Shown in pieces: positions 1-14,639 of a stretch of DNA of 40,876 nucleotides; position 1 is the stretch's first letter, and every line of letters begins with the position of its first letter. The notes under the pieces are model-generated. The model was not told where the DNA came from. It ran no database searches and saw only the letters and a program-made list of their open reading frames with translations. The translations under genes were made by a program, and so were the position numbers. The DNA lies in assembly GCA_025352785.1 (NCBI GenBank), contig JANXSD010000076.1, positions 1-40,876 of the forward strand, in the 5' to 3' direction. The stretch is from Bacteroidota bacterium (lineage in GTDB: Bacteria > Bacteroidota > Bacteroidia > AKYH767-A > OLB10).

Positions 1-1
1 T

Positions 2-3000
2 TCTGGCGCAATTAATTTTGATAGCAAAGGCATAGCAATGAACGATGGTGCAATGGCAGTATATAGTGGAACTTGTGGCGCACTAACTGAAATTGCTTGT
101 GATGATAATAGCAGTGGAAATTTATTGTTTCCAGCTCTTTCTTTAACCGGACAAACACCAGGAAATACTTTGTGGGTTCGCTTTTGGGCATGGAATAATA
201 CCAACAATGGATCGTTTCAAATCTGTGCAAGTACGTTTACTCCCCTCCCCAATGATAACCCTTGCAATGCTATTGTTGTCCCCGTAAATACAACATGTAA
301 TTTTTCCACATATACGAACGCTGGTGCAACTGCAACACTCGGTGTTACTGCTCCCACTTGTTCGAATTATGCAGGTGGTGATGTGTGGTTTACTGCCACA
401 ATTCCTGCTTCAGGATTATTAATTATTGATTCGAATACAGGCGTGATATTAGATGGCGGAATGTCTGTTTACACAGGATCATGCGGTGCGCTAACACAAG
501 TAGCATGTGATGACGATGGTAGTGCAAATGGATTGATGCCAATGCTCACTATTTCAAATTTGGCTCCTGGAACACAAATATGGATTCGCTTTTGGGAGTA
601 CGGTGATGATAACGAAGGAACTTTTTCAATGTGTTTGTACAACCCTTGCAGTGCTGGTCCTCCCGTAAATGATAATTGTATTAATGCCGTTACTTTGATT
701 TTAGGAGTACCAGCCACAGGAACAAATGTATGTGCTACAAATACTGGTGAACCTACTGCACCTGCTTGCTGGATAACCGTGAATCCCATCAATAGTGTTT
801 GGTATGCAGTTCAAGCACCTGCTTCTGGTCAAATTAGAGTTCGTGTAATCCCTAATACATTAACAAATCCTCAAGTAGCAATGTATGGCGGATCGTGTGG
901 TGTTGGAATGACGCTCTTAGGGTGTAACGATAATGCTACTGGATGTGGTACTGCTATCAATTACAGTGCTGATTTAACCGTTAGTGGTTTAATAAATGGA
1001 ACAACTTATTACATCGTGGTAGATGGGTATACTTCTTCCGCAGGCGTATTTGGAATTCTTGCTATTGATGGATCTCAACCACTACCCAATTTATCAAACG
1101 GTCAAGATTGTGGAACCTATTTAGCAGTTTGTGATACGACAATGAGTTTCGGTAATCCCGGATTTCAATCTTTCGGAAATATTTGTGATTATCCGGGGGG
1201 TGGATCAAATTGTTTACTCTCAGGTGAAAGAGGCTCTGTTTGGTTTGAAATCCCTATCAATGCAACTGGATCTTTAGCTTTTAATATCATCCCTAAAGAT
1301 TGGCCTGGATCTCCCAGTACAGGTGGAACGGATTATGATTTCGCAGTATGGAAAACAGCAGGTGCTGGTGCAGTAACATGTGCTCAAATAGCTACCGGAT
1401 CAGCTCCAGTAAAATGTAATTACGATTTCCTTGGAGTGACAGGTCTGTACGGTGCTGTAAACGGTGTAGCTCCTCCGCAATACCCAGGTTTTGGAACCGC
1501 ATACTTGAGTACTATTCCAGTTGTCGCTGGCGAAATCTATGTATTAGTTGTATCTAATTTTTCGAATAGCTCTGCCGGTTTTGATGTTCAGTTTTCAAAT
1601 ACTTCACCAGTCGTTTACGCTTCAACAGGGACTTCGTCTACTTGGTCGGGTGGGTTGGATAATGGTTGGTTTAAAAAAGAAAACTGGGGTGGATGTCCTG
1701 TGCCCACGTGTACTAGAGATGCCATTATTAATGGTGGAATTTCTATCCAGCCAACAATAAGTGCCGTTGGTGCGAATGCGCGATCTGTTATCATAAATCC
1801 TGGTGCAGTTTTGACATTAATGGCTGGTCAAACGCTAAACGTTTGTCAGGATTTTACGAACTATGGAAGCTTCATTGCTTCAACAACGTCAACCTTGTTA
1901 TTCGCCAATGCCAATGTAAATCAAAATCTAAATGGGAGTTTAGTATCTCCAAACTCGATGGGAAATGTTACGATAAATAAAACTGGTGGTTTCGTAAAAC
2001 TTTTACAGAATGCGGAGATGACTGGTGATTTTCTTGTTGCCAATAATACTTCAACTTTTGATGCCAATAGTAAATTACATCGATTAGGCGGAGACTTTAC
2101 AAACTCAGGATTTTATAACTCGGGTATAGGTACACTTGAATTAAATGGTTTGTCACCTCAATCTTATTTTAATAGTACATCAGTAAATAATGTAACAATG
2201 AAACATACAAGTACAGGCGTTACACTAAACACAAATTTAATTTTAGCAAATACTGGTATTTTAACATTAACATCAGGAAAAATTATAACATCCGGCACTA
2301 CTGAAGTACAAATTTTTAATCGTGCATCTGCATCATCAACTTCAGGAAATGCATCGAGTTATGTGGAAGGATTATTAAGAAGATATATTAACGCAACGGG
2401 GTCGTATGATTTTCCTGTTGGTAATTCTGTAAAAGGTTATGAAATGGCAAATGTAAATTTTGCGTATGTAGGAAATCCAACCGTTATTGATTATGTGCTT
2501 GCAAGTTTTCAATCGTATGGTGCTGTTCCTGTTGCATTGAATGTTACCAACTGTGCTGCTAATTTTACTTCGCCCGCTCTTGATAATGGCAAATGGATTT
2601 TTACAACTTCTGGAACTTCAACCTCTGGTAATTTCGATCTGACATTGCATAATTCTAATTATTCTAATGCCGGTGGAATATGGACTATCATGTCTGATTT
2701 TGGTGGTGGATGGGCTCTTGCAAATGGAAATTGTGTTGTTTCACCTGTCACAGCAGTAACACGAACTACAATGAATGGTTTAAGTGGAAGTTTTGGAACT
2801 GCACAAGGACCTAGCGCATTACCCATCGAATTATTGTCAATCAATGCAATTGTTGTAAATAATTTAATCCAATTGAAATGGATAACAGCGAGTGAAGAAA
2901 ATAATAAGGGCTTTAAAATTTTGCGCGCTGCAGAGAATGGTATTTTTGAAAAAATAGGATGGGTAAATGGATTTGGAAATTCATCTGTACTAAGAAATTA

Positions 3001-3385
3001 TTCTTTCAATGATTTTAATGTGAAAAGTGGTTCGTATTATTATTATAGATTGCAACAAGTAGATTTTGATGGCATTGAAACATTGAGCCCAATTGTATCT
3101 GCAAATATAGCAGTGAAATATAACGATGCATCAATATTTCCAAATCCAGTATTCGACGAATCTTTATTAACTTTTACTAATGAATCTAACGAAGGACTTA
3201 CTATTGAAGTGGTAAATACATTTGGTCAATCTATCGTGATACTAAATAATCAAACATTTCCTTTAGGGATCAATAAGCTGCTTATTAATCCTGAACATTA
3301 TGCTTGTAAACCTGGAATTTATAATTTGTTAATTCGATCAAATAAAAGCGAAACTCATTTAAAATTTCTTTATTTGGATAAGTAG
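2..3385 (+). CDS. Giant T9SS-secreted modular protein, 5' end outside window (paralogue 1)
   Basis: The reading frame is open to the left edge, so the 1127 residues visible are the C-terminal part of a longer protein; the ATG at 38 is internal, because the codons before it continue a repeat. Visible modules in order are: end of a beta-sandwich repeat (to about nt 240), a full copy (about 251-645, sharing VYTGSCGALTQVACDDD with the first), a third related repeat (about 665-1080), a GQDC...FGNICD domain (from 1100), the WSGGLDNGWF...NWGG motif (from about 1643), a repetitive beta-rich stretch resembling a solenoid, an Fn3-like domain starting LPIELLS (2819), and a T9SS type A sorting domain starting near ASIFPNP (3128). 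The N-terminal repeats resemble PPC/CUB-like adhesive sandwiches. The sorting domain implies export by T9SS and retention at the surface or release. No catalytic motif is seen, so adhesion or binding is an inference only. Confidence 0.85.
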   Translation, partial: SGAINFDSKGIAMNDGAMAVYSGTCGALTEIACDDNSSGNLLFPALSLTGQTPGNTLWVRFWAWNNTNNGSFQICASTFTPLPNDNPCNAIVVPVNTTCNFSTYTNAGATATLGVTAPTCSNYAGGDVWFTATIPASGLLIIDSNTGVILDGGMSVYTGSCGALTQVACDDDGSANGLMPMLTISNLAPGTQIWIRFWEYGDDNEGTFSMCLYNPCSAGPPVNDNCINAVTLILGVPATGTNVCATNTGEPTAPACWITVNPINSVWYAVQAPASGQIRVRVIPNTLTNPQVAMYGGSCGVGMTLLGCNDNATGCGTAINYSADLTVSGLINGTTYYIVVDGYTSSAGVFGILAIDGSQPLPNLSNGQDCGTYLAVCDTTMSFGNPGFQSFGNICDYPGGGSNCLLSGERGSVWFEIPINATGSLAFNIIPKDWPGSPSTGGTDYDFAVWKTAGAGAVTCAQIATGSAPVKCNYDFLGVTGLYGAVNGVAPPQYPGFGTAYLSTIPVVAGEIYVLVVSNFSNSSAGFDVQFSNTSPVVYASTGTSSTWSGGLDNGWFKKENWGGCPVPTCTRDAIINGGISIQPTISAVGANARSVIINPGAVLTLMAGQTLNVCQDFTNYGSFIASTTSTLLFANANVNQNLNGSLVSPNSMGNVTINKTGGFVKLLQNAEMTGDFLVANNTSTFDANSKLHRLGGDFTNSGFYNSGIGTLELNGLSPQSYFNSTSVNNVTMKHTSTGVTLNTNLILANTGILTLTSGKIITSGTTEVQIFNRASASSTSGNASSYVEGLLRRYINATGSYDFPVGNSVKGYEMANVNFAYVGNPTVIDYVLASFQSYGAVPVALNVTNCAANFTSPALDNGKWIFTTSGTSTSGNFDLTLHNSNYSNAGGIWTIMSDFGGGWALANGNCVVSPVTAVTRTTMNGLSGSFGTAQGPSALPIELLSINAIVVNNLIQLKWITASEENNKGFKILRAAENGIFEKIGWVNGFGNSSVLRNYSFNDFNVKSGSYYYYRLQQVDFDGIETLSPIVSANIAVKYNDASIFPNPVFDESLLTFTNESNEGLTIEVVNTFGQSIVILNNQTFPLGINKLLINPEHYACKPGIYNLLIRSNKSETHLKFLYLDK

Positions 3386-3676: not shown

Positions 3677-4069
3677 ATGATCTCACCACAAAAATTTTCT
3701 GGTTATAAATTATTATTTCTAATAGCCATTTTGACTATAGCAAGTTTTACCCTGCAGGGACAAAATAGGTTGGAAAGGAATGACGCGGCAGTTATTGAAC
3801 TTAAGAATTTTTCAGAAGAAAAGATGCTTCCTGTATTGAATCAACTATTGAATAAAAATTCTGGGTTGAAAATTCAAGGTTACTGTTTAGGACAAGATTT
3901 AGTGGTGTTCACTTTTGATGAGAAAAAATTTGCAACATCAAAAGATGTTTCAATATTTTTAGAAGACAATGGATATATCGCATATCTAAAAGAAAATATG
4001 AATTCATTAGATGTAATCGCTAATTGTAAAAGTCCTTATAAAAAAAGTATAGAGAAAGTTAAATTGTAA
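3677..4069 (+). CDS. Small secreted protein paired with giant T9SS protein (copy 1)
   Basis: This 130-residue protein begins with a signal peptide (hydrophobic core about residues 11-25, likely cleavage after the LQGQ near residue 29). The mature part reads as strand-helix-strand-strand-helix-strand, the order of a ferredoxin-like/HMA-type fold; this is my reading of the pattern, not a computed prediction. It has two cysteines (70 and 117) and no CxxC metal site. It is paralogous to the gene at 9074: both have a G[YF]C motif, a DV before the second helix, a [LI]K.N segment and a final cysteine exactly 13 residues from the C-terminus. It lies 64 bases upstream of a giant T9SS gene, as its paralogue does. 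I do not recognise a named family. An accessory, chaperone or surface-partner role for the neighbour is inferred only from position. Confidence 0.75.
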   Translation: MISPQKFSGYKLLFLIAILTIASFTLQGQNRLERNDAAVIELKNFSEEKMLPVLNQLLNKNSGLKIQGYCLGQDLVVFTFDEKKFATSKDVSIFLEDNGYIAYLKENMNSLDVIANCKSPYKKSIEKVKL

Positions 4070-4133
4070 ATCGATAAAGAATAAAGATAAAATATTCTAA
4101 AAAATTTTATAGTCCATTTTCAATAATTATGTC

Positions 4134-7100
4134 ATGAAAAATAGTTGTAGAATAAAGAAATTGTTTTCGGTTATATTAATGATGTTCATCTTTGTATATT
4201 CAGGGTATGGACAAATTCCTTATTTGACATCTGGTTCAAATTATAATCAAACTTTTGATGGGATTCTATCATCTGTCCCATCCAATAATACTACTCAATC
4301 AATACCCGTATTACCAACTGGATGGGTTTGGATAGAAACCGGTTCAAATGCAAATTCCACATATCGCGTTGATAATGGAACATCAAACACAAGTGACTTT
4401 TATTTACTTGGTGCAACCAATTCTACTGAACGTGCAATCGGAGGTTATTCAAGTAATAATTTGCAATCGGAATGGGGTGCTTCTTTAATAAATAATGCTG
4501 GAGTAACATTAACGGATTTCACTCTTACCTACACTGGTGAACAATGGCGAGATGGGGGAAGTCCATCTGCTGTAAAAAATGTGGATGCGTTCTCTTATTC
4601 TGTAAATAGTGCAACATCATTAACAACAGGGATATGGAATAATGTTACTCAATTAAATTTCACTGCACTTGTAAATAATAATTCTTCCGATATAACATTA
4701 AATGGAAATTCAGTTGCAAATAAAATAGTAATAACATTTACTGTAACTGGAATTTCATGGGCACCAGGACAAACATTATGGATACGTTGGACAGATCCAA
4801 ACGAAAGTGGTAATGATGATGCCATGGGCATTGATGATTTAATATTTTCTGCAGCAGTTCCAACAATAACTACCTCTTCTATTTCACCTTTAACGTATTG
4901 TTCTGGATCTACTGTGTCAGTACCGTACACTAAAACAGGAAGTTTTGCTGGTGGAAACGTTTTTACTGCTCAACTTTCTGATGCAACAGGTTCATTTGTT
5001 TCACCAATAAATATTGGTTCCCTTTCTTCAACAACATCTGGAACAATAACAGCTACAATTCCCGTAGCGACTTCTACAGGAACACTGTATAGAATTAGAG
5101 TTGTTTCAAGTACACCCTCTATTATTGGAACAAATAACGGAAGTAATATTTCGATTACATCAAAACCAACAGCAACAATTTCATATTCAGGTAGTCCGTT
5201 TTGTACTAATTATTCTGGTGCACAATCAGTTAATTTAACGGGTACTTTAGGAGGAACATTTAGTTCAGCAGGAGGATTAACAATTGTACCATCATCGGGA
5301 CAAATAACACCATCATCAAGCACTGCAGCTTCTTACACAGTAACCTATACGATGTCTGCAACGGGTGCTTGTCCTTTGCAAACCGCAACAACAAATATTA
5401 CTATTTCATCTCCACCACCTTGTACCTTAGGAACTGGTGTTGTAAACGTTGCTTCCTTACCCTTTATCTCTAACGGAAGAACTACATGTGGTAAAGTAAA
5501 TAACCTAACATCCGCAAATACATTGTCATGTGGCATTTCAAATTACCTTAGTGGTGAGGATGAAGTGTTTATTTTTACTCCTACATCATCAGGAAATATT
5601 ACAATTAATCTTATCTCAAATGGATCAAGAACGGGTTTAATGTTGTATGATGGTTGCCCTTTAAGTGGAAGTTGTTCTACTACTTCATGTATCGGTTACG
5701 AACAAAGTAGTTCTGGAAATAAATCACTTTGTGCAAATGTTACAAGCGGTGTTACCTATTATTTAATAGTTGATTCGTGGGCAAATCCTAATTGCAATAG
5801 TTATGATATTAATATTGATGCACCCATATCTTCTTTACCAGGATCAGTATGTGCAAATGCAATTACAATTCCTTCGATGCCTTATACTCTTACCAATGAA
5901 ACAACAAAATGTAGAGGTAATGATTATACAAATGCAAGTATAGGTTCTTGTGGTACTATTTATGAATCGGGAGAAGATAAAGTGTATGTTTACAATGCTG
6001 TTTCTGCAGAGTGTATCGGAATTACAATTACGGGTGCTAATAGTAATTCAATAGGGTTTCAAGTTTATTTAGGTTGTCCTGGTTCTGCTGGAACATTGTG
6101 TGTTGGAAATTCTGGTGGTGCAGTAAGTGGAACATTATCGGGTACCGTAACGCTTAGTACACCTGGCACTTATTATATCGTTGTAGATAATCAAGCTGCT
6201 CCTAGTTATGTTAATTATAATATTTCAATTGCATCTTTCGGTGCAGGAGTAACAAATGATCTTCCATGTAATGCAATACCATTAACATTAGGAGTATCTT
6301 ATGTTGGAACAAATACTTGTTCATCGGGGGCTAGTGAACCAGCTACACTTCCTGCATGTTGGGGACCTGGTGGGAACGTAAGAAATACTGTTTGGTTTAA
6401 AGTGGTAGCTCCATCTTCTGGAAGTATTCGTGCACGTGTAATTCCTAACTCCTTAACGAATCCACAAATTGCACTTTATTCAGGAACATGCGGAACATCC
6501 ATGACATTAAAAGGGTGTAGTGATGACGCTTCATCATGCGGAACAACTACTAATTATAGTTCAGATTTAACAGTTTCAGGATTGATAGCGGGTAATACTT
6601 ATTTTATTGTTGTTGATGGTTATGGAATTCTTACAGGAAGTTTTGGAATTTTAGCTATTGATGGAAGTCAACCATTGCCTCCTTTATCAAATGGTCAAGA
6701 TTGTGGAAGTTATATTCAAGTTTGTGATACCACGATGAGTTTTGGAAATCCTGGATTTCAATCGTTCGGAAATATTTGTGATTTCGATGGCTCTGGTGCA
6801 AATTGTTTGAACGCTGGTGAAAGAGGCTCTGCATGGTTTGAAGTAACAATGAGTACTAATGGTGTTCTTGAATTTTCAATCGTTCCTAAAGATTGGTCTG
6901 GCCCTGCAATGCCTGTTGGTAATGAAACAGATTACGATTTTGCTGTTTGGAAAACTGTAGGAACTGGCGCTGTAACATGTGCCGACATCGCTACACCGAT
7001 TAATGCAGTACCTCTTAGATGTAACTATAGTGCTCTTGGTCTTACTGGATTATATAGTGCAGCAAATGGAGTACAACCTCCGCAATATCCAGCCGGTTAT

Positions 7101-8999
7101 GCAGGAGCTTTTTCTAGTCAAATAAATGCTTTAGCTGGTGAACATTATGTGATTTTAGTTAGTAACTACGCAACTAGTACATCTGGTTTTGATATTATTT
7201 TCAGTAATACTTCACCTATAGTTTATGGTGGTGGCGGATCCAATGCTGTTAGTTGGTCAGGTGGCACTGATACCGATTGGTTTAAAAAAGAAAATTGGGG
7301 TGGTTGTGCAATTCCTTCTTGCTCACTTGATGCAATCGTAAATGGCGGAATAATTTTGCAACCTGCTATTAGTGCTCCCGCTAATGCGAAGTCAATTTTA
7401 ATTAATCCAGGTGCAACACTTAAATTAAATTCAAATAAGACCTTAACAGTTTGTGAGAATTTTACAAATCTCGGAACATTTAATTCTGGTTCAGGATCAA
7501 CTGTAATTTTTAACAATAATACTTTCAATCAAAATATTGATGGAAATTTATTAGGAACGAATGCTTTCTCAAATGTTACAATAACAAAATCAGGAGGTGT
7601 AGTAAAAATATTTAAAGATGTGGAAATGAAAGGTGATTTCATGATCTCCAATGGTTCATCCGCATTCTCTGCAAATAGTAATTTGCATATAGTCGGTGGT
7701 GATTTTACAAATAATGGAAATTACTTAACTGGCATTGCTGGAATCCTAGAATTAAATGGCAGTACTCCTCAGAATTATTACAATTTTGGAACCTTGAACA
7801 ATGTAAACATCAATAATGTAAGTGCAAGTGGTGTTACTATTTATTCAGATCTTGAAGTTGGAAATAACGGAATTCTTACTTTAACAAATGGAAGAATTAA
7901 TACAACTCCATTTACAGAAGTTAGAGTATTAAATAGAAATATTTCTTCTGTTACAAGTGGAAACAATTTTAGTTTCATTAATGGAAATTTACGAAGAAGA
8001 ATAAATTCACAAGGCTCTTATAATTTTCCAGTTGGAGAGGCAAGTAAAGGATACCAATTGGCAAATGTAAATTTTAATAATATCTCCAATCCAACTACCA
8101 TTGATAATATCGTCGTCAACTTTCAACCCTATGCTTCATTACCTCCGTCTACTGGTGCTACTGATTGCGGGATTAATTACACATCTCCTGTGCTCGATAA
8201 TGGTAAATGGAATTTCGTTTCTACTTCTAATGCTTATTCGGGAGACTTTGATCTTACTCTTCATAATTTGAATTATACGAATGCGGCTGCCCAATATACG
8301 ATCATGAATGATCAAGGCGGTGGATGGATGATCGCAAATGGAAATTGTGCTCCTTCCATTGTAACTGCAGTAAAACGAAATAGCATGACTGGTTTAATTG
8401 GAGATTTTGGAACAGCACAAGGACCAGGTTTATTGCCAATCGAGTTGCTCTCATTCACTGCAAAGCCACTTTCAACATTCATTCAATTAAACTGGACAAC
8501 CGGCTCTGAAAAAGAAAATCGAGGCTTCGATATACAACGCTCTGATGCTAATGGTGCATTTGAAACAATCGGCTGGATAAATGGTGCTGGTACAACCAAT
8601 ATTCAAAAGTATTATCAGTTTAATGATATTAATGTAAAAGCAAGTACACTTTATTATTATCGATTACATCAAATTGATTTTAATGGAAAGGCATCGTACA
8701 GTCCTATAATTTCTTGTCAACTGAAAGGACGATTCCTTAATGCATCTGTTTTCCCAAATCCAGTTGCCGAAGAGTCGGTACTTACTTATTTTCTAGAAAA
8801 TGATGCTAACGTAATGGTTAGTTTGATAAACACTTTAGGAGAGGAAATAATTATTCAAGAAAACACACTTTTGCATCAAGGGACCCAACATTTATTTATC
8901 AAAACAACGCCTCTCCATGTTTCCGATGGTTTATATACTCTTAAAATTAATGCTTCTGGGAAGGAGGAATTTTTGAAAATAATCATATCATCCAAATAA
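4134..8999 (+). CDS. Giant T9SS-secreted modular protein (paralogue 2)
   Basis: This is a complete 1621-residue protein. A signal peptide (about 1-26, ending YSGYGQ) leads into a 235-residue beta-rich domain with FDG...LPTGW and DDAMGIDDL landmarks, of the kind found at the N-terminus of many Bacteroidetes secreted proteins. Ig-like segments follow (about 240-428). Three PPC-like sandwich modules come next (about 430-565, 570-700, 707-850), with EDEVF.F or EDKVY and YY[LI]VVD landmarks. Then come the GQDCGSY domain (from 854), the WSGGTDTDWF...NWGG motif (1040), a repetitive beta-rich stretch, an Fn3-like domain (from 1434, LPIELLSF) and a T9SS type A sorting domain (about 1537-1621, ASVFPNP). 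It is very close to paralogue 1 from the GQDC domain onward. The many cysteines suggest disulfides formed in the periplasm. No enzyme motif is visible. It is probably co-transcribed with the small gene 64 bases upstream. Confidence 0.9.
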   Translation: MKNSCRIKKLFSVILMMFIFVYSGYGQIPYLTSGSNYNQTFDGILSSVPSNNTTQSIPVLPTGWVWIETGSNANSTYRVDNGTSNTSDFYLLGATNSTERAIGGYSSNNLQSEWGASLINNAGVTLTDFTLTYTGEQWRDGGSPSAVKNVDAFSYSVNSATSLTTGIWNNVTQLNFTALVNNNSSDITLNGNSVANKIVITFTVTGISWAPGQTLWIRWTDPNESGNDDAMGIDDLIFSAAVPTITTSSISPLTYCSGSTVSVPYTKTGSFAGGNVFTAQLSDATGSFVSPINIGSLSSTTSGTITATIPVATSTGTLYRIRVVSSTPSIIGTNNGSNISITSKPTATISYSGSPFCTNYSGAQSVNLTGTLGGTFSSAGGLTIVPSSGQITPSSSTAASYTVTYTMSATGACPLQTATTNITISSPPPCTLGTGVVNVASLPFISNGRTTCGKVNNLTSANTLSCGISNYLSGEDEVFIFTPTSSGNITINLISNGSRTGLMLYDGCPLSGSCSTTSCIGYEQSSSGNKSLCANVTSGVTYYLIVDSWANPNCNSYDINIDAPISSLPGSVCANAITIPSMPYTLTNETTKCRGNDYTNASIGSCGTIYESGEDKVYVYNAVSAECIGITITGANSNSIGFQVYLGCPGSAGTLCVGNSGGAVSGTLSGTVTLSTPGTYYIVVDNQAAPSYVNYNISIASFGAGVTNDLPCNAIPLTLGVSYVGTNTCSSGASEPATLPACWGPGGNVRNTVWFKVVAPSSGSIRARVIPNSLTNPQIALYSGTCGTSMTLKGCSDDASSCGTTTNYSSDLTVSGLIAGNTYFIVVDGYGILTGSFGILAIDGSQPLPPLSNGQDCGSYIQVCDTTMSFGNPGFQSFGNICDFDGSGANCLNAGERGSAWFEVTMSTNGVLEFSIVPKDWSGPAMPVGNETDYDFAVWKTVGTGAVTCADIATPINAVPLRCNYSALGLTGLYSAANGVQPPQYPAGYAGAFSSQINALAGEHYVILVSNYATSTSGFDIIFSNTSPIVYGGGGSNAVSWSGGTDTDWFKKENWGGCAIPSCSLDAIVNGGIILQPAISAPANAKSILINPGATLKLNSNKTLTVCENFTNLGTFNSGSGSTVIFNNNTFNQNIDGNLLGTNAFSNVTITKSGGVVKIFKDVEMKGDFMISNGSSAFSANSNLHIVGGDFTNNGNYLTGIAGILELNGSTPQNYYNFGTLNNVNINNVSASGVTIYSDLEVGNNGILTLTNGRINTTPFTEVRVLNRNISSVTSGNNFSFINGNLRRRINSQGSYNFPVGEASKGYQLANVNFNNISNPTTIDNIVVNFQPYASLPPSTGATDCGINYTSPVLDNGKWNFVSTSNAYSGDFDLTLHNLNYTNAAAQYTIMNDQGGGWMIANGNCAPSIVTAVKRNSMTGLIGDFGTAQGPGLLPIELLSFTAKPLSTFIQLNWTTGSEKENRGFDIQRSDANGAFETIGWINGAGTTNIQKYYQFNDINVKASTLYYYRLHQIDFNGKASYSPIISCQLKGRFLNASVFPNPVAEESVLTYFLENDANVMVSLINTLGEEIIIQENTLLHQGTQHLFIKTTPLHVSDGLYTLKINASGKEEFLKIIISSK

Positions 9000-9073
9000 T
9001 TAAGTAATCAAAAGTCGATTTCCGCAACTCTCATGGTTTCTTTTTCGTAAGAAAGGCATAAATATGCCCATCT

Positions 9074-9448
9074 ATGAAACCATTATGCCTGTTTTTGACC
9101 TTTTTTTTAAGTTTTCTTACATCTGCACAACTCGAAGCGCAGGATAATTCTGCAACTATAAATGTTACGGGAGACTTAGTGATTGAAATCCCTAAAGCAG
9201 ATTTAATAAAAACAATACCATCCCTTAAATTGAAACTAAAAGAGATAAAAAATATTTCTTTTGATGGATTTTGTGACAGTAGAAAATTGCTTTTTCTGCA
9301 TACCAATGGTGAATCCCTTTCTGATGTTTTGACAATAATGAAAGAAATGAATCTAATTTATTATATCAAGCAAAATACATCAATAGAACGTGCAAAGAAA
9401 GCATGTTTGAATGAAGATGAAATCAAAAGTAGTTTCATAACAGAATAA
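9074..9448 (+). CDS. Small secreted protein paired with giant T9SS protein (copy 2)
   Basis: This 124-residue protein has a signal peptide (core about residues 4-17, likely cut after QLEAQ, residue 23). Like its paralogue at 3677, it has a mature domain of alternating strands and helices, a GFC motif (Cys67), and a last cysteine (Cys111) exactly 13 residues from the end. Cysteine spacing is 44 residues, against 47 in the other copy. Sequence identity between the two is low outside the landmark positions, so they are old paralogues or fast-evolving. The ATG at 9074 is preferred because the signal peptide begins there. It lies 74 bases after giant paralogue 2 and 30 bases before paralogue 3, so it is probably co-transcribed with the latter. 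Function unknown. Confidence 0.75.
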   Translation: MKPLCLFLTFFLSFLTSAQLEAQDNSATINVTGDLVIEIPKADLIKTIPSLKLKLKEIKNISFDGFCDSRKLLFLHTNGESLSDVLTIMKEMNLIYYIKQNTSIERAKKACLNEDEIKSSFITE

Positions 9449-9478
9449 TTTATTTAACAAAACCGAATCATCCAAACC

Positions 9479-12400
9479 ATGAAACGACTAATAACTATTT
9501 TTAGTTTGCTTATATGCATTCAACAAATTAATGCACAATGTATCGGTGGTACATTCGCTACAAATGTTACCCCTTCTACTTCTTGGCAATTTGTTAATAG
9601 TGTTGCTGGTGGAACATATTATACTTTTAATGGAACTGCAGGAAACACGTATACATTTTCTTTTTGTGCAGCAGACGGTGCAAGTAGTAGTTATGATACA
9701 CAAATTTCATTATTAAATTCTTTTGGAAATTATTTGCAAATAGGTGTTGATGATTATTGTGGCTTAAATGCACGATTAGATTTTTACTGTGCAAGTACTG
9801 CTGCTTATCGTGTGTTACTAACAAAATACAATTGTGTAAGTCAAATCAATATGGGTAAGATAGCTTATAAATATGTTGCAACTCCAATTTGTCCATCTGG
9901 TCTTGGCAATGGTGTAACAAATGTTGCTTCATTACCTTATACTTCAGGTGCAGGTTCAACCGCAGGAGGAACAAATGATCTTACATCCTACAATATGAAT
10001 GTTTGTAGTAATGCTTCTTATTTATATGGTGAAGATAAAGTTTGGATCTTTTCACCTGTAACTGGAGGAAATTTAACAATCACCTTATTAACCTCAAGTA
10101 CAAAAGCTGGTATGTATTTGTTTAAAGGTTGTCCTTTAAATGGAAACACAAGTTCATGCGTTGCATCAAGTTTGGGAGGAGGAAATCCTACTATGACAAT
10201 TTGTGTAGAGCAAGGTGCAACTTATTATTTAGTTATCGATTCAAAGTCTAATACATCTAATTTTACATATTCCAATTTAACAATTACTGCACCATCTGCT
10301 GTTTCAACTTGCTCCATAGGAACTGAAATAAATATTCCTAGTCTTCCATATAATTCAATAGGTAGAACAACTTGCGGAAAGGGAAATGAAATTACAAGTG
10401 CTAATACATTAACATGTGGAAATAATTCCTATTTATTTAGCGAGGACGAAGTGTTTACATTTACGCCGATATCATCTGGAAATATAACAGTTGGAATTAC
10501 TACCTCTTCCTCTTATTCAGGAATATTTTTATTTGAAGGTTGTCCATTAACAAGTTATTGCGCAGCTACTGGCAACAAGTGTATTGGAAGTTCAACTTCT
10601 GCTAGTGGAACAAAATCATTGTGTGGATATGTAATTGCGGGAAGAACTTATTATGTTGTTGTTGATAATTATAATAGTTGTTTTCCCTATTCCATAAATA
10701 TCTCTTCGCCAGCATCAAATTTAACAGGAGCTACTTGTGCTAATCCAGTAATGGTTTCTTCATTACCATTTATTGCAACAAAAGAAAGTACAACATGCAT
10801 GGGTGATGATTACAATAATTTTACAGCTGGTTCATGTGGTTCATTGTATGAATCAGGAGAAGATAAAGTTTATCGTTATGATTCACCAGGAGCAGAATGT
10901 ATAGGTATTACGTTGTCTGCATCTAGTACAAATAGTATAGGTTATCAAGTGTATAATGGAATCCCAGGAAATGTTGGTGTTACATGCATCGGTTCAGGTG
11001 GAGGTGCCTACGCTGGCACGTTAACAGGAAGCGTTACTTTATCCATTGCTGGAACTTATTATTTTATGGTCGATACGTGGGCTGATCCTACGAACGCAAA
11101 TTATAATATTACATTATCATCTTATGGAAATGCTGTTGCAAATGATTTGCCTTGTAATGCTATTATGATTCCAGTTGGTAATTCTGTTACAGGTGATAAT
11201 AGTTGTTCTAATGGTAGTGGAGAACCTTCCGTACCTGTATGTTGGACAACTCCGAATAGCGCAAACACGGTTTGGTATAGTTTCGTTGCGCCATCATCGG
11301 GAAAGGCAATCATCCGAACTTCAACAGGATCATTGCGCAATACACAAATTGCACTTTATGGTGGAACATGTGGTAGCGGTTTATCTTATGTTGCATGTAA
11401 TGATAATGCCGCAGCTTGTGGAGGCAGTTCAACAACTATGTCGCAAATATCGGCTACAACATTAGTGGCTGGAAATACTTATTACGTTGCCGTTGATGGT
11501 TATAGTTCGTTTACAGGATCATTTGGAATTTCCGTACTCGATGGCGCAAATCCATTGCCTGCTGTTCCGGGTCAAGATTGTTCAATGGCATTGTCGGTTT
11601 GTAAATCTGTAACAACAGTTGGTGACCCAGGCTTTCAAACATTTGGTAATATTTGTGATTTTAATGGTGGTGGTACTAATTGTATTTCTACAGGTGAACG
11701 TGGTACTGTTTGGTACGAAATTCAAATTGCTTCTAATGGCACCATGGAATTTACGATAACTCCAAATGATTGGGAAGGCTCACCAAGTTTAGTAAGTACT
11801 GATTATGATTTTGTCATGTGGAAAACAAGCGGATCAGGCGCAACAAGTTGTGGTGGAATTTCTTCAGGAGCAACTCCTATTCGATGTAATTATAGTTTTC
11901 TCGGCGTTACAGGATTATATGGTGCTAGTAACGGTTTAGATAACCCATCCTATCCTGGATTTGGTGCAGCTAATCAAGCACAATTACCTGTTGTAGCAGG
12001 AGAAGTTTACGTTCTTGCAATTTCAAATTACTCTAATTCTGTTTCTGGATTTAAATTAGAATTTAGTAATAGTTCGCCAATAAATTATACTCCTACACCA
12101 TCAACAGTTGTATGGACTGGTGGAGTGGATAACGATTGGTTTAACACGGAAAATTGGGGAGGATGTGCTTTGCCAAGTTGCGCAACAAATGCAATTATAC
12201 TTTCTGCATCTGCAAATCAACCCATAATAAATGCATCTGGTAGCGCTGCAAAGTCGTTAACGGTTAATGCGGGATCAAGTTTAACAATTAATTCTGGTAA
12301 TACTTTAACATTATGTCAGAATTTTTCTAATTCAGGATTATTAAATGCACTTGGTAATGCAACAATTTTGCTCAATGGAAATTTGAATCAAACTATTTCT

Positions 12401-13900
12401 GGAAGCTTGGCAGATAAAAATGCATTGGCGAATTTTACAGTCACAAAAACTGGTGGAACAGCAACGCTATCGAATGATATAGATGTAAATGGTAGTTTAA
12501 TAATTTCTGACGCATCAAGTACGCTCGATGGTAACGGAAAGAAAATAAATTTAAAAGGAAATTTTGCAAATAATGGTGGAAGTTTTATAGCGGGAAATAA
12601 TGGAAATCTAACATTTATAGGAAATTCAAATCAAACATATTTTAATCTCGGAACTATTAATTCTGTTGTAATGTCACATAGTGGATCAGGAATTACATTA
12701 CTTTCAAATATGAATGTAGGAACAAATGGTGTGATGAATTTTAGTAGTGGAAAAATCGTAACAACAAATAACTTTGAAGTAAATGTAACCAATAGTAATT
12801 CATCAGCAATCAATGCAGGTAATGCTACGAGTTTTGTTGAAGGTACGCTAAGAAGATCTCTCCCAATTGTTCAGTTGCCACGTATTTTTGAATTTCCTGT
12901 AGGCAATGCTGCTAAAGGATTTCAACGTGCTACTTTAAATTTATATACCGGAACAGCACCAAGTATTTCAAGTTTGGCATTAACGTTTAATAATTATCCT
13001 GGTTCTATACCTAATTCATTAGGACAAGATCCTTCTTGTTCTCCTAAATTTAATTCAGCTTCTTTAGACAATGGATATTGGACATTAACTCCACAAGGAA
13101 ATGGTCAAGCTGATATGAATATGACATTGTATAATACAAACTATACTAATCCGTCAAATGTTTTTTCGATTATGGAAAGCGTGAATAGTGGATCATGGTT
13201 TGTCCCTAATATTATAAGTGGAAATTGTATATCATCTTCCATTACTTCCGTTACTCGAAACGGTATTGGAATAACACATGCTGCAGGTGTGCCAATTAGT
13301 TTTGGAATAGCACAAGGAAATTCTGCATTGCCTATTACATTACTATCATTTATTGCAGAAGCAGGGAACAGCAGTATCATGACGACATGGATAACCGCCA
13401 CAGAAAAAAATAATAAAGGCTTCGAAATTCAACGTGCAACGAAACCAGATCAATTTGTAGTTGTTGGTTGGGTAAATGCTGCTGGAAATGGAAATTCAAC
13501 TATTCTGAACACTTATAATTTTGAAGATAAAAATGTAAATGCAAATGTGCTTTATTATTATCGCTTACATCAAATTGATTTAGATGGAAAAGAGTCGTAT
13601 TCCAAAACTGTTGCTGCAATCATTCATGAAAAAGGTGTTGTGATTCTAAATGCATATCCTAACCCTTATAGTGAAGCTACTACCATAAAATATATTCTTA
13701 GTCGACCGACTATAGTTACTATTGAAATTTCTGATATGAGTGGCAAATTAGTAAAAAAATATCAACAAGGATTGCAAAATGAAGGAAACTATTCAGTGCC
13801 ATTTTCAGGAAAGGAATTGGGGCTGAATGCAGGTTTGTATAATGTAGTAGTTTGGTGCGACGACGAACGACATCAATTACGTTTAACTGAAACGGAATAG
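9479..13900 (+). CDS. Giant T9SS-secreted modular protein (paralogue 3)
   Basis: This is a complete 1473-residue protein with a signal peptide ending INAQ (residue 19), so the mature chain would begin with a cysteine. A first domain (about 20-135) is followed by PPC-like sandwich modules at about 140-275, 278-415, 418-552 and 555-695, with EDKVW.F, EDEVF.F, EDKVYRY and NTVWYSF landmarks. Next are the GQDC...FGNICDF domain (from 698), the WTGGVDNDWF...NWGG motif (879), a repetitive beta-rich stretch, an Fn3-like domain (from 1284) and a T9SS type A sorting domain (about 1392-1473, NAYPNPYSEAT). Modules 2 and 3 closely match those of paralogue 2. The region before the Fn3 domain diverges from paralogues 1 and 2, which share a YxFPVG..KGY..ANVNF segment. 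It is probably a surface adhesin or matrix protein; no catalytic motif is seen. Confidence 0.9.
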   Translation: MKRLITIFSLLICIQQINAQCIGGTFATNVTPSTSWQFVNSVAGGTYYTFNGTAGNTYTFSFCAADGASSSYDTQISLLNSFGNYLQIGVDDYCGLNARLDFYCASTAAYRVLLTKYNCVSQINMGKIAYKYVATPICPSGLGNGVTNVASLPYTSGAGSTAGGTNDLTSYNMNVCSNASYLYGEDKVWIFSPVTGGNLTITLLTSSTKAGMYLFKGCPLNGNTSSCVASSLGGGNPTMTICVEQGATYYLVIDSKSNTSNFTYSNLTITAPSAVSTCSIGTEINIPSLPYNSIGRTTCGKGNEITSANTLTCGNNSYLFSEDEVFTFTPISSGNITVGITTSSSYSGIFLFEGCPLTSYCAATGNKCIGSSTSASGTKSLCGYVIAGRTYYVVVDNYNSCFPYSINISSPASNLTGATCANPVMVSSLPFIATKESTTCMGDDYNNFTAGSCGSLYESGEDKVYRYDSPGAECIGITLSASSTNSIGYQVYNGIPGNVGVTCIGSGGGAYAGTLTGSVTLSIAGTYYFMVDTWADPTNANYNITLSSYGNAVANDLPCNAIMIPVGNSVTGDNSCSNGSGEPSVPVCWTTPNSANTVWYSFVAPSSGKAIIRTSTGSLRNTQIALYGGTCGSGLSYVACNDNAAACGGSSTTMSQISATTLVAGNTYYVAVDGYSSFTGSFGISVLDGANPLPAVPGQDCSMALSVCKSVTTVGDPGFQTFGNICDFNGGGTNCISTGERGTVWYEIQIASNGTMEFTITPNDWEGSPSLVSTDYDFVMWKTSGSGATSCGGISSGATPIRCNYSFLGVTGLYGASNGLDNPSYPGFGAANQAQLPVVAGEVYVLAISNYSNSVSGFKLEFSNSSPINYTPTPSTVVWTGGVDNDWFNTENWGGCALPSCATNAIILSASANQPIINASGSAAKSLTVNAGSSLTINSGNTLTLCQNFSNSGLLNALGNATILLNGNLNQTISGSLADKNALANFTVTKTGGTATLSNDIDVNGSLIISDASSTLDGNGKKINLKGNFANNGGSFIAGNNGNLTFIGNSNQTYFNLGTINSVVMSHSGSGITLLSNMNVGTNGVMNFSSGKIVTTNNFEVNVTNSNSSAINAGNATSFVEGTLRRSLPIVQLPRIFEFPVGNAAKGFQRATLNLYTGTAPSISSLALTFNNYPGSIPNSLGQDPSCSPKFNSASLDNGYWTLTPQGNGQADMNMTLYNTNYTNPSNVFSIMESVNSGSWFVPNIISGNCISSSITSVTRNGIGITHAAGVPISFGIAQGNSALPITLLSFIAEAGNSSIMTTWITATEKNNKGFEIQRATKPDQFVVVGWVNAAGNGNSTILNTYNFEDKNVNANVLYYYRLHQIDLDGKESYSKTVAAIIHEKGVVILNAYPNPYSEATTIKYILSRPTIVTIEISDMSGKLVKKYQQGLQNEGNYSVPFSGKELGLNAGLYNVVVWCDDERHQLRLTETE

Positions 13901-14639
13901 GTGGTACATTGCCATATAAATTAATCCAATTTACTTAGTCTTATTCGCGCGCATTACCTTAATGATTGTTTAGCAGATAAGCATATTGGCAATTTATTAA
14001 AATCACTTTGGTAAAAAATTACTTTATATTTTTAGACTAAATCATAAATACATTTGTTGTAAAATGAAAAACATATCTACAAATTGAAGGCAAGTTTTTG
14101 AATACTATTAATTATAATTATTTAATAGTCTACTGAAGTTTTTTACAATTTTATTAATTGTATTTTGATACTAATAAAAATTTACATGGTATTATTTTAG
14201 TGATGTGAAGCTTTTTTCAAAAAGACCAGAAGCATTTCGATGACGTGACTCATCTGATTTTTTCTTTTAGCAAATTACAAACACTTCTATTCGGTTGCTC
14301 CCATTTATGCAATTATTTATTCGTAAATTTGAGTAGGATGGGATACGTAGTATCCCGCAATTTTCTCTAGCAGCAAATTACAAACACTTCTATTCGGTTG
14401 CTCCCATTTATGCAATTATTTTTTTGTAAATTTGAGTGGGATGGGATACGTAGTATCCTGCAAAAATTTCAAATGAATCTGATTTTTCTTCTGAAAAAAG
14501 TATTCGCTTAAAAAAACATTCACAATCATGAAATTTACATATCGAAGTACATCAAATAAATTTTTCACGGGTTAATGTCAAAAAAATAGTAGAAATTTAA
14601 AAGGGACTAACTATTTTCAAGGAGCGTTTTATTCTAGCA
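13901..14639. other. 739-base gene-free stretch between convergent genes
   Basis: Both flanking genes end here. No open frame of protein-like character, RNA gene or clear T-tract terminator is visible. The only structured content is the 92-bp tandem duplication at 14269-14463. A short sequence close to ATCTGATTTTTTCTT occurs on both sides of the duplication (near 14252 and 14476), perhaps a remnant of a larger repeated unit. Confidence 0.6.
14269..14463. repeat. 92-bp direct repeat, two copies, each with a GGGATAC/GTATCCC palindrome
   Basis: Copy 1 is 14269-14360 and copy 2 is 14372-14463, separated by 11 bases and differing at 4 positions by eye. Near its end each copy carries GGGATACGTAGTATCCC (14340-14356, a perfect 7-bp stem with a 3-base loop) or the same with a final T (14443-14459). 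The repeat is non-coding. It could be a dispersed genomic repeat (REP-like or MITE-like) that happens to lie twice here, or a local duplication. Confidence 0.8.

Follow-up and report, generated by a model that had tools for sequence, protein, structure and literature searches.

Small exported proteins with a predicted HMA-like fold encoded directly before giant T9SS proteins: candidate dedicated escorts in a class of Bacteroidota

At the left end of contig C33 of a Bacteroidota bacterium, the gene of a giant type IX secretion system (T9SS) protein is directly preceded by one that encodes a small exported protein, and the same order is then repeated in tandem. This arrangement raises the question of whether the small protein serves the large one, and in what capacity. 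The window considered here is the whole stretch of DNA that was analyzed, with a length of 40,876 nucleotides.

Tandem pairs in the window and a third pair across a contig boundary

The small-then-giant order had been noticed in the first-pass annotation as occurring twice, and the coordinates of the open reading frames, their lengths and the gaps of 64 and 30 bases were all confirmed. All genes of the window's pairs lie on the forward strand. The window opens with the C-terminal part of giant 1 (1–3385), a T9SS type A substrate with a GQDC domain, whose reading frame runs on beyond the left edge and whose first in-window ATG lies at position 38. Small protein A (3677–4069; 130 aa, exported, with Cys70 and Cys117 and without CxxC) is followed by giant 2 (4134–8999; 1621 aa), with a C-terminal T9SS type A sorting domain and a GQDC domain at 6684–7238. 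The second pair consists of small protein B (9074–9448; 124 aa, exported), with Cys67 and Cys111 besides a Cys5 that falls within the leader, and of giant 3 (9479–13900; 1473 aa), with a type A sorting domain and a GQDC domain at 11570–12088; a fold like that of heavy-metal-associated (HMA) domains is predicted for both small proteins. Scans for promoters and terminators gave no signal above chance. A 103-bp tandem duplication was observed 3' of giant 3 (14257–14462), its copies 92% identical and each with a TGGGATACGTAGTATCC hairpin. At least 150 sorting domains of type A were counted in the genome of the window (3.46 Mb), where 150 candidates were scored, representing a large T9SS secretome. 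The window's giants and their relatives are cysteine-rich (median about 42, roughly 2.8%) whether paired with a small gene or unpaired.

If the pairing is a rule, a third small gene would be expected before giant 1, beyond the left edge of the window. One end of contig C154 from the same genome is identical to window bases 1–94 (a 94-bp exact overlap), and this contig carries on its minus strand both the N-terminus of giant 1 (L096 909–1) and, overlapping its start by 4 bp, a third small gene (L096 1304–906) that would fall about 811–1209 bases left of window base 1. The predicted gene is therefore present, but its product, an exported protein of 132 aa with no Cys, belongs to a different, mostly cysteine-less subfamily (no mature Cys, or one). 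Members of the same subfamily were found directly 5' of GQDC giants in two other genomes (L202:4377–4805 and L288:7538–7936). When this three-member subfamily was compared by profile with the main family, the match was confined to the second half of the fold (probability 70%, E = 4e-5), and the subfamily likely belongs to the HMA-like family. Adjoining the third pair is a divergent gene for an outer-membrane beta-barrel of ~204 aa (PF13568; L096:1599–2210), followed by UbiX; this barrel gene is conserved at syntenic places in L062, L063, L064 and L069–L073.

One protein family with a predicted HMA-like fold

Direct comparison of A and B by BLASTP gave a weak match (23% over 69 aa, E = 0.002), and their kinship was therefore tested via relatives. 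Whole-genome searches for homologues of A and of B found them in the same GTDB family, and an HMM trained on 27 relatives, with A and B both excluded, gave A a score of 70 bits (2e-20) and B one of 67 bits (2e-19); when the groups nearest to either protein were left out as well, the scores were 54 and 48 bits. Since a model built without them still recognizes both, A and B are truly homologous members of one family, and the earlier view of them as paralogues is borne out. The shared features described at first sight were also seen, as both proteins have a signal peptide, in the form of a hydrophobic N-terminal leader with a Q-rule-like AQ/GQ site at its end, and a G[YF]C motif. The reported spacing of exactly 13 residues after the last cysteine is true of A and B, but the tail ranges from 0 to 22 residues across the family, and the fixed length is a matter of chance and no family feature. 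In an alignment of 21 sequences, only the two cysteines are invariant. Neither A nor B matched a T9SS sorting domain in Pfam or NCBIfam, and no lipobox was seen in the leaders of the small proteins. The family is unnamed and appears to be undescribed.

A and B were modeled in separate AlphaFold2 jobs on one shared five-sequence alignment. Both models place the elements in the order strand-helix-strand-strand-helix-strand-helix (pLDDT 80.7 for A and 76.1 for B), and the two folds agree rather than being unrelated. In Foldseek searches against the PDB, HMA domains dominated for both proteins (ATP7B, MerP, Atox1, CopZ, ZntA), with TM of about 0.7–0.78 over the target and a probability of about 1, at E-values of 0.008 or weaker; they were the best matches of A, and in the case of B a few non-HMA ferredoxin-like matches with poor rmsd topped the E-value ranking. 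The best matches of the family profile to PDB sequences were mostly copper-ATPase HMA domains, all of them weak, and hmmscan of 29 members returned a single weak HMA match (E = 0.027) below the Pfam cut-off. A and B are predicted to have an HMA fold, that is, a ferredoxin-like beta-alpha-beta-beta-alpha-beta arrangement.

The cysteines of the family do not form a CxxC site in the HMA beta1-alpha1 loop, where no Cys was found in the aligned family members. They lie where strand 2 ends and within an added C-terminal helix, about 45 residues apart. Among 54 members, both are present in 45 and neither in five, with the first alone in four and the second alone in none; this pattern of being mostly both present or both absent suggests an internal disulfide, which may stiffen the fold. 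No clear link was apparent between cysteine-less small proteins and cysteine-poor giants when Cys counts were compared: for the five paired small proteins that have neither cysteine, the complete giants keep 15–47.

Recurrence of the pair and the giants that carry it

A 29-member profile, which recognized the family in the window's order, was also used for a class-wide search that covered about 420 genomes of the window's class. A match at E <= 1e-3 was found in 48 of the 395 class genomes drawn, some of these being ordinary HMA proteins, and 395 genomes drawn from the phylum yielded, at the stricter E <= 1e-6, three weak matches besides the window's own. At E < 1e-9 there were 51 distinct profile matches, including two ordinary HMA metallochaperones (CC-type or related) and two at contig ends. 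In every one of the 47 informative matches that remain, a giant T9SS protein lies 3' on the same strand (40 complete, six cut by a contig end and one separated from its small gene by an insertion sequence), at a distance of -28 to 69 bp with a median of 20. More than half of the 51 matches had themselves served to train the profile, the training set having been picked by sequence; among the class-wide matches outside that set (L243–L255), a giant follows in all except the metallochaperone and contig-end cases. Downstream tails were scanned for 48 proteins, counting giant 1 of the window and the protein partnered with a metallochaperone match (L263); 47 of them matched the T9SS sorting model TIGR04183 and three the type B model TIGR04131.

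The search also returned sequences that fall outside the pairing. Among weak matches (E about 1e-3 to 1e-6), some were rejected as CxxC/CC metallochaperones (for example L257, L263 and L268), two as HMA-like genes 5' of TonB receptors (L265, L278), and two as an ankyrin and another chance match (L272, L274). Stand-alone relatives of the small family were seen at L142:7474–7866, at L143:7468–7860 and, in the window's own genome on contig C55, at L262:5959–6336; they adjoin a conserved 633-aa gene and have no T9SS gene behind them, and the cysteine-less L142 (9.6e-10) was left out of the count of 51. Variant arrangements were observed as well: at L250:6341–7440, a transposase gene flanked by inverted repeats lies between a small gene and its giant, whose linkage is thereby naturally disrupted; at L273:3271–3594, a two-cysteine small gene lies 3' of, not before, a T9SS-type protein; and in L260 and L266, a two-cysteine small gene, a type B giant and a PorP/SprF-like gene form a three-gene unit.

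The pair recurs in many families of the class with varying flanks (UbiX, aspS and others), and this recurrence, together with the cognate matching described below, upholds the initial suggestion that small and giant genes belong together as a conserved pair. To determine which giants have a partner, the GQDC domain of giant 2 was searched in the window's order, giving about 80 places, and the 5' gene was inspected where the giant was retrievable. In a tree of 61 GQDC domains, the giants closest to those of the window make up a clade with full SH-aLRT support in which 26 of 32 giants are paired; outside it, a partner was found for two of the 28 scored GQDC giants. The paired or unpaired state changes five times on this tree, against 20.2 times in shuffles. 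Close GQDC giants of one genus (g5), which adjoin aspS, are without the small gene and represent losses, and the small gene is therefore not indispensable. Whether small genes always precede GQDC giants had been put forward as a check, and such a rule did not hold, since the GQDC domain is undetectable in some paired giants, the sorting domain of a few partners is of type B and many of the distant GQDC giants are unpaired; partners of the first two kinds imply that the domain is not required for pairing. Three pairs among at least 150 sorting domains in the window's genome further indicate that the small protein is client-specific and no general part of the T9SS.

Distances between small proteins were found to correlate with the distances between their giants. 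To remove shared species history, giants were swapped only among pairs within one genome, and for the sorting domain (CTD) the observed correlation (r = 0.687) compares with 0.430 +/- 0.079 in these shuffles, 1 of 5000 reaching the observed value. The correlation was 0.601 for the 200 residues before the sorting domain (0.389 shuffled) and 0.420 for the giant N-terminus (0.281 shuffled). The higher value for the CTD than for the N-terminus is no proof of a binding site, because the N-terminal domains differ and align poorly. These sequence comparisons indicate that the pair is inherited as a unit, and the cognate matching would be compatible with a physical partnership, with the caveat that co-inherited adjacent genes yield matching trees even without contact.

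Possible roles of the small proteins and known systems

Among the hallmarks of a dedicated chaperone are client specificity and a gene beside that of its client, and these two are found here in the pairing, the cognate matching and the clade of paired giants. We therefore favor the view that each small protein acts in the periplasm as an escort or chaperone dedicated to a single T9SS substrate, a reading that we regard as evenly balanced between right and wrong. The leader, in combination with neither a sorting domain nor a visible lipobox, points to residence in the periplasm, and the lack of an own sorting domain together with client specificity favors an escort located there. The small protein would be made just before its giant, exported by Sec and retained in the periplasm, where its HMA sheet would serve as a protein-binding surface and keep its own giant secretion-competent or unaggregated until PorV and the SprA translocon take over. 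Foldseek matches of B include structures of rice Pik HMA domains with fungal effectors, an example of the HMA fold binding proteins. Counting against an escort are the close GQDC giants that do without a small gene and the reliance of both AlphaFold models on one and the same set of five sequences. More tentatively, and with our expectation leaning slightly against it, the class-wide family of HMA proteins without a metal site may consist of private escorts of giants, each recognizing its own client possibly via the C-terminal region and together forming a cargo-specific layer for type A substrates.

The main rival, which we consider unlikely yet worth serious attention, is that the small protein leaves with the giant and acts as a surface-bound subunit, cap or ligand. 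Cognate matching and tight linkage would suit a subunit as well as a chaperone, and the giants are long, cysteine-rich and likely surface-acting; against this, the small proteins have no sorting domain and could therefore exit by piggy-back only, a route that is undescribed for the T9SS in the literature surveyed.

It is improbable that the small protein has a redox or metal-related role, in which it would carry a metal or make or shuffle disulfides in its giant. The predicted HMA fold, the two conserved cysteines and the some 42 cysteines per giant would all be consistent with such a role, but the aligned family members are without CxxC, five paired small proteins have neither cysteine while their giants still have 15–47, and unpaired GQDC giants are just as cysteine-rich. 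By analogy, the small protein could tie the exported giant to the T9SS or gliding track by disulfide exchange, given the finding that SprF and PorG use Cys pairs to attach to the gliding track through disulfides with GldK (PMC12635249). Permanent intermolecular disulfides are thus known in the T9SS (PMC12635249) and the small protein would be a periplasmic two-cysteine partner of a T9SS substrate; we nevertheless hold this highly improbable, as SprF and PorG form barrels in the outer membrane and carry a Cys-Xaa-Cys tail, the small protein has no membrane anchor, its cysteines lie about 45 residues apart, and the existence of cysteine-less members makes a disulfide link less likely. Neighboring genes may persist together by chance or for expression, but mere linkage, with the small gene having an unrelated periplasmic role or acting as a translational leader, has very little probability given a pairing that recurs across many families in changing surroundings, survives tandem duplication and involves a partner of the same kind in 47 of 47 informative cases.

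If the small proteins are indeed dedicated escorts, T9SS secretion would include a cargo-specific layer for type A substrates that is absent from current models, and a copper-chaperone fold would have been put to new use in the absence of the metal site. A one-to-one partner of some of the largest substrates would also help to explain how proteins that have 1000–2000 residues and some 40 cysteines get through the periplasm. A search of openly licensed articles on the T9SS and HMA proteins found no paper on the small-giant pair; tandem colony-spreading genes (PMC9950754) were considered as a parallel and set aside as Wza/Wzz-like and unrelated. Type A substrates are thought to have a common carrier, PorV, and the T9SS reviews and recent work consulted describe PorV, PorP/SprF-like shuttles and a Skp-like chaperone, with no dedicated periplasmic helper of type A substrates.

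Among known systems, dedicated periplasmic foldases or chaperones can be encoded beside one secreted protein, as are the lipase-specific foldases. These resemble the small family in having one helper, one client and adjacent genes, whereas their sequence and secretion system are unrelated to it. Within the T9SS, PorP/SprF-like shuttles are outer-membrane beta-barrels encoded beside type B substrates, for which they are specific and which they anchor (PMC9143113, PMC12618676). Each member of the small family is likewise dedicated to one T9SS substrate and has its gene next to that of the substrate, but the small proteins are soluble-looking, of about 100 residues and predicted to be alpha/beta, and mostly precede type A substrates. 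HMA metallochaperones (PF00403/PF19991; CopZ, MerP, Atox1) share the predicted fold and weak profile similarity, and the small family differs from them in having no CxxC, an extra C-terminal helix with a conserved Cys and a T9SS giant as genomic partner. SkpA, a general trimeric Skp homologue, is recruited by the T9SS extended translocon (PMC10994853), and the presence there of a general Skp-like chaperone counts against a dedicated escort. Both SkpA and, in the role proposed here, the small family would handle T9SS substrates in the periplasm, SkpA as a general chaperone and the small proteins as client-specific helpers with an unrelated fold.
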